A DNA stretch of 64,000 nucleotides from Roseimicrobium sp. ORNL1. GTDB lineage: Bacteria > Verrucomicrobiota > Verrucomicrobiia > Verrucomicrobiales > Verrucomicrobiaceae. The notes beneath the pieces were generated by a model. The model had not been told where the DNA came from, did not search any database, and worked only from the letters and a program-made list of their open reading frames with translations. Below are positions 40,798 to 48,909 of this stretch, piece by piece. Each line of letters starts with the position of its first letter. The first letter of the stretch is position 1. Position numbers and translations under genes: made by a program. The DNA is taken from positions 4,774,001 through 4,838,000 of the forward strand of contig NZ_CP049143.1 of the NCBI RefSeq assembly GCF_011044495.1, written 5' to 3'.

Positions 40798-41254
40798 GGG
40801 CCAGTCAGTTCAACAGCAGAGCGCTGACGGACGGGTAAGAAAACCCGCCGGACGCTGTCCGGTCAGGAGACCCGACTTCCCCATGTGCGTCAGGATAAGG
40901 GAGGGGGGACCGTAGCCGCATCCAACAGGGATCACGGTCTGTTTTCATCTGGCAGGTAGAAGGCACGCTTTGTGTCGTGGAGTGCGTGTGGCAGGCGTTC
41001 GCGCGACACCGCTTTTCATCGTTTACTCGGAGAGGATGAGGGTCATGGAGCGCGGTTGTGACCGTTATTGGTCAGACCGGAGGTCTAACATCCACTGTCA
41101 GGCGAGGACGCCTAACCTCCTTCCCTCTCCCCCACCCTCTCAAATTCCTTTCGCAGCGCTGAAATTCTTCTTGCAAATACCCCATTCGATGGCTTTTTCC
41201 CGGCTCCACAAAACGGAAACCTGACCGCCAGGTTGGCGGAATTCAAACCATCTA
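40798..41254. repeat. Intergenic region with one composite REP repeat; rpsO leader
   Basis: 457 bp with no gene. A plus-orientation copy of the composite REP element lies at 41068-41122 (ggtcagaccggaggtctaac ... tcaggcgaggacgcctaac). Sequence 41150-41254 should hold the rpsO promoter and leader; no certain -35/-10 pair was found. Confidence 0.6.
41068..41122 (+). repeat. Composite REP element, copy a
   Basis: Two adjacent hairpins: ggtcagaccggaggtctaac, then a ~6-nt spacer, then gtcaggcgaggacgcctaac. Five other full copies and one half copy lie between 44.0 and 48.4 kb. Confidence 0.8.
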
Positions 41255-44033: not shown

Positions 44034-44066
44034 GAAGAAGCAGGCAGCGATGCCTGCTTCTTTTGT
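44034..44066 (+). terminator. Rho-independent terminator after pnp
   Basis: Perfect 11-bp stem agaagcaggca (44036-44046) / tgcctgcttct (44051-44061), loop gcga, then tttgttt. Confidence 0.92.
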
Positions 44067-44078
44067 TTGGCATTCAGA

Positions 44079-44285
44079 CAGGAGGTTAGGCGTCCCGCCT
44101 GACAGCGGATGTTAGACCTCCGGTCTGACCAAAGTCAAAAGGAGCATGCACCGCAGACATCGCTCTTTGCGGTATGCCTCCGAAATGCTATGCACCACTG
44201 GTCATGTAATGAAACGGACCAATAGAGCGAATGGTCAGACCGGAGGTCTAACCCCCACTGTCAGGCGGGGACGCCTAACCTCCTT
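44079..44285. repeat. Left REP cluster (BIME-like) next to the transposase gene
   Basis: A minus-orientation composite REP (44079-44133) and a plus-orientation one (44232-44285) face away from a ~98-bp spacer. The spacer shares blocks such as cgcagacatcg and atgcaccactggtcatgt with the spacer of the right cluster (45042-45257). The right end touches the transposase stop codon at 44291. Confidence 0.8.
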
Positions 44286-44290
44286 CGCAA

Positions 44291-44962
44291 TCACCTCCCC
44301 GGTTCCCGGAAGCCCCACCCGAGCCTCGCCCACTCCGGATTTTCCCATCGGTGCCACTGGTCCTTTGCCAGGCCTGCTTTGGCGGGATTGTTGCCAATGT
44401 ACTGCACCACACGCGCCAGATGCCGGGCATCACGTACGATGGTGTCATAACTCTCTTGAATCCACACGTTGCCCTGCATGGACAGCAGCTTGTTGATTTC
44501 ATGCGAGGAGAATCCTTTCCAGGACTGCATCACGACCTCCATCTCGTGACCAAGAAGAGGACGGAACGCCGCATGCACGTGATTCGGCATCACACAACAG
44601 GCACCCAAATCGTACCGTTTGCCATGAAAGTGCAGCAGAGCGTTGAGCATCATCGTGGCGATGTCCCGGCGAGCCAGCCAGCAGTTCCCGTGGCCAGCGT
44701 CGAGCCACGATTCCACTTTGCGCATGACCTCTCGCCGGCGTTCCTCATAGTCCTCCGGTGAGTTGGTCTCCGCCTGCGCAAGCTGACTTGTAAGAACACG
44801 CAACTCCCTGAGCTTTTCTTGAGGAAGGGAGTCTCCGAGATGGAAGGTAACGAAGTAGGTCGCACCATCCTGAGTCCAGTGAGGCAGATGCCGCCGGCTG
44901 CGTTTGACCGGGCGAGTCGGATCAAAAGGCTGAAAACCAGGGGGACCGGAGATAAATTCCAC
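44291..44962 (-). CDS. REP-associated tyrosine transposase (RAYT, IS200/Y1-like)
   Basis: 223 residues. This is a single-strand transposase of the HUH Y1 type that acts on REP palindromes. The HUH motif is in CVMPNHVHAAF (~122-132), and the catalytic Tyr is most likely in WIQESYDTIVRDARHL (~169), followed by the typical VQYIGNNPAKAGL. The N-terminal block RRHLPHWTQDGATYFVTFHL is characteristic of RAYTs. The gene is enclosed by composite REP clusters on both sides, as expected for this family. It looks complete and is likely the factor that spread this REP family. RAYTs usually do not move as simple insertion sequences. Confidence 0.9.
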   Translation of the reverse strand: MEFISGPPGFQPFDPTRPVKRSRRHLPHWTQDGATYFVTFHLGDSLPQEKLRELRVLTSQLAQAETNSPEDYEERRREVMRKVESWLDAGHGNCWLARRDIATMMLNALLHFHGKRYDLGACCVMPNHVHAAFRPLLGHEMEVVMQSWKGFSSHEINKLLSMQGNVWIQESYDTIVRDARHLARVVQYIGNNPAKAGLAKDQWHRWENPEWARLGWGFREPGR

Positions 44963-45018
44963 AGGATTGGGATCATCACGCGAAGGATATTTGTCAACGG
45001 AATGGACGAATGCGTTTC

Positions 45019-45257
45019 TGGTCAGACCGGAGGTCTAAGCCAGGAGGTTAGGCGTCCCGCCTGACAGCGGATGTTAGACCTCCGGTCTGACCAAAAGGTG
45101 AAAAGCACCCTGCGTCGCAGACATCGAGCTCTGCCGGACGCCACCAGGGCGCCATGCACCACTAGTCATGTCATGTCGTGCAGCGGAATAGACGAATGCG
45201 TTACTGGTCAGACCGGAGGTCTAACATCCACTGTCAGGCGGGGACGCCTAACCTACT
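45019..45257. repeat. Right REP cluster next to the transposase gene
   Basis: A half element in plus orientation (45020-45039) is followed by a full minus copy (45042-45095), a ~109-bp spacer and a full plus copy (45205-45257). The flank 'gacgaatgcgtt.ctggtcag' occurs before both the half element and the last copy, so this cluster grew by duplication. The spacer is homologous to that in the left cluster. The region up to the 45372 gene holds no other feature. Confidence 0.8.
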
Positions 45258-48217: not shown

Positions 48218-48909
48218 AACGAGGGCGAGTTAAAAAAAGGTCCTCTAACGGGACGAACCTGCCCAGCGTGTTGCGGAAGGCCCAAGGAGGTTAGGCGTCC
48301 CCGCCTGACAGTGGGCGTTAGGCCTCCGGCCTGACCGGCAACACATTGCATGGTCTTCGTCTTCGTCTTCGCCTTCGCCATCACTTCCACCACAAGGCCG
48401 TTTCCGGTTAACCGCAGAGGGGCAGAGAGGCAAAGGACGCAGAGACGCACAGGCATGTCGCGCGTGCCTTTGAGAGAGGCAGAGGATCAAGGAGTGGGGA
48501 CATTCCTGTCCCCATGGAAGTACGAACGGAGTCATTGGAGGCAGAACGTCCCCAGTGATGAAAGGGCGTCTCGCAGGGAGCGGCACTAGCCTGGTGCCGG
48601 CGGTGGGCAAATAGGGTGCGGAACCCTTCTCTTCGAAGCTGTAAGGACGTTTCCAAGCTGCTCGCGTGACGACGCTGCCTATGACGGCACCAGGCTGGTG
48701 CCGCTCCCTGCGAAGCAGTCGCCTCATTTACACGAAGGGAGCTATTGAGAGCTTGAAGGTGTAGTTCGTACTTCCATGGGGACAGGAATGTCCCCTCTCC
48801 TTGGGCCTGCCGCAACACGCTGGGTAAGTTCGTCAGCTTGAAGGCCCGCTCTCAACCTCCTTTGGTATAATACACATCACACGATGATGATGTCCCTTCT
48901 GGAAACCGG
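48218..48909. repeat. Nested inverted-repeat region between convergent genes
   Basis: 692 bp without a gene. Three repeat families are arranged symmetrically: outer arms 48250-48286 and 48802-48838 (gacgaacctgcccagcgtg type), middle arms 48487-48527 and 48765-48805 (ggagtggggacattcctgtc type), and inner arms 48570-48608 and 48684-48714 (gggagcggcacYagcctggt type). A minus-orientation composite REP (48286-48337) sits inside the left outer arm. Each family also has copies elsewhere in the window. Confidence 0.8.
48286..48337 (-). repeat. Composite REP element, copy f
   Basis: Minus-orientation copy (ggaggttaggcgtccccgcc ... gttaggcctccggcctgacc). In the left hairpin the usual agacc/ggtct stem pair is changed to aggcc/ggcct on both sides, a compensatory change that supports selection on the fold. 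Confidence 0.8.

Follow-up and report, generated by a model that had tools for sequence, protein, structure and literature searches.

REPtrons, which unite a REP-associated tyrosine transposase (RAYT) with its REP sequences, are usually described as immobile. A RAYT gene (RAYT-A) enclosed by two REPINs downstream of pnp, within a 64-kb window (positions 4774001-4838000) of a 7.96-Mb single-contig genome (G000), bears on how RAYTs and REPs persist and move. The locus is a REPtron, in that its gene lies between inverted REPs with further copies elsewhere in the genome. Very probably the RAYT has on either side a copy of its cognate REPIN, which is unusually composite, the REPINs being maintained or spread in trans and the RAYT gained or lost between them. 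It thus appears to be a mobile system of a known kind that is undergoing turnover, whose mobility and cleavage we infer. We compared G000 with a sole same-genus genome, that of a sister species (G001, a draft of 30 contigs). Available in the two genomes are a dozen RAYTs that each have a REP class of their own, a defined site at which a RAYT is present or absent, an orthologous RAYT whose location differs, and paired stem differences between orthologous REPs; gain and loss, cognate recognition and REP class switching therefore become directly testable in a phylum in which such systems have received little study.

Layout of the locus downstream of pnp

The features of the locus, with two further composite REPs in the window, are as follows.

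44002: end of pnp; the RAYT-A locus lies downstream
44035-44062: terminator-like hairpin between the end of pnp and the left REPIN
44081-44284: left REPIN, two composite arms and a spacer
44081..44129, plus strand: left composite arm of the left REPIN, with GGAG foot, outer hairpin GTTAGGCGTCCCGCCTGAC, linker AGCGGAT and inner hairpin GTTAGACCTCCGGTCTGAC
44130..44233, no strand: spacer of the left REPIN, ~104 bp, homologous only to the right spacer
44234..44283, minus strand: right composite arm of the left REPIN, its GGAG foot ~10 nt after the RAYT stop codon
44291..44962, minus strand: RAYT-A gene, a 223 aa HUH/Y1 transposase with GTG start and intact frame
44995..45039, minus strand: half REP with spacer-tail flank; inner hairpin only, at 45021-45039
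45043-45257: right REPIN, preceded by the half REP
45043..45091, plus strand: left composite arm of the right REPIN, matching the arm of the left cluster at 98% identity over 58 nt
45092..45206, no strand: spacer of the right REPIN, ~115 bp
45207..45256, minus strand: right composite arm of the right REPIN, with foot GTAG at 45253-45256
41071..41120, minus strand: another composite REP of the A type, with a conserved counterpart in the sister species
48286..48335, plus strand: composite REP of the commoner GGCG+GGCC type; the orthologous sister-species site lacks it

A preliminary description had placed an HUH/Y1 transposase between two clusters of composite REPs, and this arrangement is confirmed, with the frame, the PNHVH motif and Tyr188 all intact. 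Each cluster does consist of two composites around a spacer, but the spacers measure ~104 and ~115 bp rather than ~100 bp, and the order is plus then minus, with the GGAG feet outward, rather than minus then plus. Over 81 nt the spacers match each other at 73%, in agreement with the proposal that the clusters are a duplicated unit. The extra half REP noted at the right cluster likewise shares its flank, 44 nt of which are 93% identical to 45181-45224 in that cluster. Direct and inverted repeats at the locus reach 58 nt at 98% and 57 nt at 93% identity. As shown by the homology of the spacers, the two REPINs and the half REP evidently arose by local duplication, and the half REP is what remains of a truncated REPIN copy. 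In the window, six copies of the inner hairpin GTTAGACCTCCGGTCTGAC are present at ≤1 mismatch, with a related one at 48317; the mean over shuffled sequences was 0.01 matches, and seven were not reached in any of 100 shuffles, so that this recurrence cannot be due to chance.

The GTAG of the outermost right arm is the canonical REP foot, nearly all other arms having GGAG. Elsewhere in the window, a tail (ttaaccgcagaggggcagagaggcaaaggacgcagag, 48388-48444) adjoins the GGCG+GGCC composite REP and has dozens of copies beside such REPs in both species. Between 48488 and 48710 there are hairpins of two other REP classes, ggagtggggacattcctgtcccc and ggagcggcactagcctggtgccg (the inverse of the latter near 48680), which resemble those flanking other RAYTs of the same genome (L056, L053).

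Architecture and dispersal of the composite hairpins

Each REPIN arm contains two tandem hairpins 26-27 nt apart, with a GGAG foot, and a REPIN hence has four hairpins. The order within an arm is GGAG, GTTAGGCG-loop-CGCCTGAC, AGYGGnn, GTTAGACC-TCC-GGTCTGAC, the outer-hairpin loop being 3 nt in plus arms and 4 nt in minus arms. The two inverted REPs of a REPIN form one long hairpin, with a folding energy of -71.1 kcal/mol against -27.6 kcal/mol for shuffled sequences (z -12.4), and plus-minus is the commonest pattern at REP loci. In the tiles around REP sites the element has a sharp edge: GGAG is conserved in 99-100% of 128 two-hairpin arms, in place of the GT[AG]G foot of REPtrons, and the flank beyond it is unconserved. 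RAYT relatives in other families have the foot GTAG. A T.G mismatch occupies the third stem position in 261 of 266 hairpins. The scan did not constrain this position, but the tiles themselves had been picked with a T.G pattern, so that the proportion is biased upwards. The stems fall into ten types, all fully paired and varying by paired changes; pairing was required by the scan, and what the sequences themselves add is the range of paired types. At the orthologous site 7804862, one species has GTTAGGCGTCCCGCCTGAC and the other GTTAGGCCTTCTGGCCTGAC, while the neighbouring hairpin is unchanged. Because stems at orthologous sites change on both sides together, these data suggest that preservation acts on the local hairpin and not on the long inverted repeat.

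Pattern searches for the 3-nt-loop form (TTAGNNNTCCNNNCTGAC) returned 107 copies in G000 and 43 in G001, and those for the 4-nt-loop form 163 and 122 copies, giving ~270 and 165 superfamily hairpins, respectively. Reversed-pattern controls gave 0 (3-nt-loop) and 3 (4-nt-loop) matches in G000, and 0-4 overall. The composite REP thus has hundreds of related hairpins beyond this locus, as the preliminary description anticipated. The same expectation failed for the spacers: in all tiles sampled (~1 Mb, chosen around REPs and used with the pattern searches for copy counts), the two match only each other. Recent copying of whole REPINs including their spacers, at least of the type at the RAYT-A locus, was therefore rejected, and no near-identical copies of the locus REPINs were found in our searches. 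Rfam, searched with the window and with two tiles dense in REPs, gave no match, nor did PADLOC.

Nearly half of the 3-nt-loop copies lie within ~0.5 Mb of G000 (C1:2290000-2830000; L126-L135), where many stand in tandem (++ or +++), the units being 250-300 bp long and each carrying a CGCAAAGGGGCAGAG-type tail. A repeat of 250 bp that contains inverted arms was seen in G001 (L114:7901-8191) and at ~37 places in G000; its copies are 78-86% identical, and it represents a larger REPIN-like family found throughout the genome.

The transposase and its relatives

RAYT-A matches the Pfam Y1_Tnp model at 29.9 bits, above cut-off, and thus carries a Y1 HUH domain. The closest model is the NCBIfam equivalog for REP-associated transposases (NF047646, REP_Tyr_transpos), at 66.4 bits against a cut-off of 80. 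His128, His130 and Tyr188 are invariant in 18 homologs, and PNHVH is conserved. As a sequence search of the PDB returned only a weak match to 4er8 (E 0.18), we used fold comparison instead; with the AlphaFold model (pLDDT 88.9) the best PDB match was again 4er8 (E 3e-6), the E. coli RAYT bound to a REP hairpin. For RAYT group 4 (TnpA-Y1 subclass 2.4) the motifs NH[IFV]H, WQ and YIxNNP are described (PMC6006769); RAYT-A, with NHVH and YIGNNP but WI instead of WQ, is a possible member. Judging by conservation and by the E. coli enzyme, RAYT-A most likely binds single-stranded REP hairpins marked by the GGAG foot and the T.G mismatch in the stem. By analogy with TnpAREP (PMC8266576), it would nick beside these hairpins and rejoin the ends, maintaining and occasionally spreading REPINs in trans. 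GGAG retains the AG to which the choice of CT as cut site is attributed in the enzymes studied.

RAYT-A is the single RAYT of its exact type in G000, in support of the preliminary description, its closest paralog (RAYT-B) being 71% identical. A related-locus search among genome contigs found distant RAYTs only. RAYT-B is flanked in both species by its own composite, with GGCC-TTCC and GGTC-TTCC hairpins. The other RAYTs of G000 are likewise bracketed, almost every one by hairpins of its own: among twelve RAYT-like genes, ten have bridging inverted repeats above shuffled expectation and one further gene lies between direct copies of 77 nt. Among 142 genomes from the order, at least three GGAG-REPs occur in only six, all carriers of the RAYT-A/B clade, and more than one GGAG-REP in none of 134 non-carriers; as the six fall in two genera, they are not independent events. 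Two genomes (G106 and G114) have members of the clade without the GGAG-REP pattern and carry other REPs. At one RAYT locus (L051:1369-1676) flanking REPs are missing; it has an inverted repeat of 34 nt (GGGAGCGCTGGCC...), and the transposase domain match includes one of the two arms.

Turnover between sister species and possible movement of RAYT units

The orthologous site downstream of pnp in G001 holds one composite REPIN with the same hairpins and no RAYT, showing that a RAYT gene has either been gained at a position between REPINs or been lost from it. The 30 contigs of the G001 draft yielded no further member of the RAYT-A lineage. REPs without a RAYT in relatives, which the preliminary description had set against a spreading role, do occur here: A-type REPs are present in the sister, which has no A-type RAYT, and the tree makes a loss in that species the more likely. 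RAYT-A is the outgroup to the orthologous RAYT-B pair of the two species with full support, so their common ancestor probably had RAYT-A somewhere. Because the split between RAYT-A and RAYT-B predates that between the species, loss is the more likely direction, and these data suggest that RAYT-A was lost in the sister species. Such a loss may have occurred, for example, by recombination between duplicated REPINs, which ease deletion of the gene between them; this would explain how the RAYT went and REPINs were left behind. The G001 spacer has no recognisable homology to either G000 spacer, its similarity to them lying within that of shuffled sequences (59 and 168 of 500 were equally similar). 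The proposal that simple recombination between the two clusters now present gave the single REPIN of the sister is therefore unsupported.

The opposite direction, in which RAYT-A inserted in this lineage beside a pre-existing REPIN downstream of pnp, carrying or duplicating a REPIN, is possible if somewhat doubtful. It accords with the single REPIN at the sister's site, and RAYT-B indicates that RAYT units do relocate, its orthologs lying at different loci (2515053 in G000 and C8:354300 in G001). The outgroup position of RAYT-A stands against it, although an insertion could still be a relocation of the ancestral gene. For RAYT-B, the G001 site corresponding to 2515053 has a short hairpin only and is RAYT-free, and the G000 site corresponding to C8:354300 has neither REP-B nor RAYT. 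Homology of the unit ends on the right at the REP plus ~9 nt, while on the left only a common repeat continues past the REP. An orthologous pair at different sites, each RAYT-free in the other species, points to relocation of RAYT-B as a REP-bounded unit.

REPIN sites also differ between the two species. Site 4097055 is cleanly empty in G001, the composite is missing there at 3008063 and 1602297, and the REP at 48290 in the window (48286..48335) is absent; sites 41071, 7804862 and 4375936 are common to both, a sharing that, with tiles chosen around REPs, gives biased frequencies and not rates. Several A-type REPIN sites are thus old. Of the suggestion that this is an active or recently active REP-spreading unit, the polymorphic insertions hold, and recent copying does not, given the locus-unique spacers and the lack of near-identical REPIN copies in the searches above. 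In G001 (C8:330248-330468), a repeat with CGACCAGCGGTCGCAG hairpins is inserted into the inner hairpin of the REP orthologous to that at 41071.

These sites bear on a reading in which there was segmental duplication only, the REPs being kept as DNA or RNA structures (terminators or mRNA stabilisers) and the RAYT being a bystander or domesticated, with no role in spreading. Spacers confined to the RAYT-A locus, REPIN sites conserved between species and clusters that form a local duplication all fit it. We nevertheless consider it unlikely, as REP copy number follows presence of the RAYT clade, clean empty REPIN sites exist, almost every RAYT in G000 has its own bracketing hairpins, and pnp already has a separate terminator-like hairpin at 44035-44062. 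That the locus is a TIR-bounded element (a TIRtron or IS200-like insertion sequence) and not a RAYT-REP pair is scarcely credible: long near-perfect inverted repeats flank the gene, and double palindromic inverted repeats flanking RAYT-like genes, with copies elsewhere, are described for TIRtrons (PMC3733652), but the repeats here have the REP layout of a tetranucleotide foot and hairpin with hundreds of copies away from the gene, the TIRYT consensus GGGGWSAS (PMC3733652) is absent from the arms and the IS200 model scores 14 bits against a cut-off of 55.

The REPtron assignment agrees with published RAYT (TnpAREP) and REPIN systems in the HUH/Y1 transposase related to E. coli TnpAREP, the flanking inverted REPs, the dispersed REP doublets, the tetranucleotide foot, the mispaired stem and the cognate REP class (Bertels and Rainey 2011, PMC3116915; PMC6006769; PMC8266576). 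Unusual for a REPtron are the composite two-hairpin arms, the GGAG foot (one arm has GTAG) where the studied E. coli enzyme requires GT[AG]G (PMC8266576), the T.G mismatch, which is almost invariant, and the exchange of stems at orthologous sites through paired changes. IS608 and ISDra2 (IS200/IS605 family) share the transposase fold and recognition of subterminal hairpins (known for IS608), whereas here there are many dispersed non-coding copies, and two REPINs take the place of a defined left end and right end. Earlier work has described RAYTs with REP monomers or dimers at their sides (PMC3733652), REPIN clusters next to RAYTs and REPINs in tandem arrays (PMC3116915), and both REP class changes at orthologous RAYTs and RAYT loss leaving orphan REPs (PMC3686654); REP-richness in Verrucomicrobia was reported in passing only (PMC3733652, O. 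terrae).

In the published view, REPtrons apparently do not transpose as whole units (PMC6006769). Contrary to this view, there is perhaps an even chance that REP-RAYT-REP units do so in this order, because RAYT-B orthologs occupy different chromosomal sites, each free of RAYT in the other species, and because RAYTs bracketed by GTAG-REP hairpins occur in frame within other genes of relatives. Such in-frame RAYTs are not described in the literature searched, coverage of which is incomplete. In the tree, the RAYTs embedded in LeuRS belong to two or more distinct groups, one of which also includes the IspG-embedded RAYT.

These RAYT domains, with an intact HUH motif and mostly intact Tyr motifs, sit inside housekeeping enzymes of relatives in the order: LeuRS (L086, L089, L091, L095 and L097; the five checked share the same editing-domain loop), CarB (L090, L093 and L096), IspG (L098) and a PglX-like methyltransferase (L100). 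GTAG-REP or double-REP hairpins lie on both sides and are translated as linkers; folding of the flanking hairpins covered eight of the ten cases. Some 40 of the ~160 listed RAYT matches lie in open frames of at least 500 aa.
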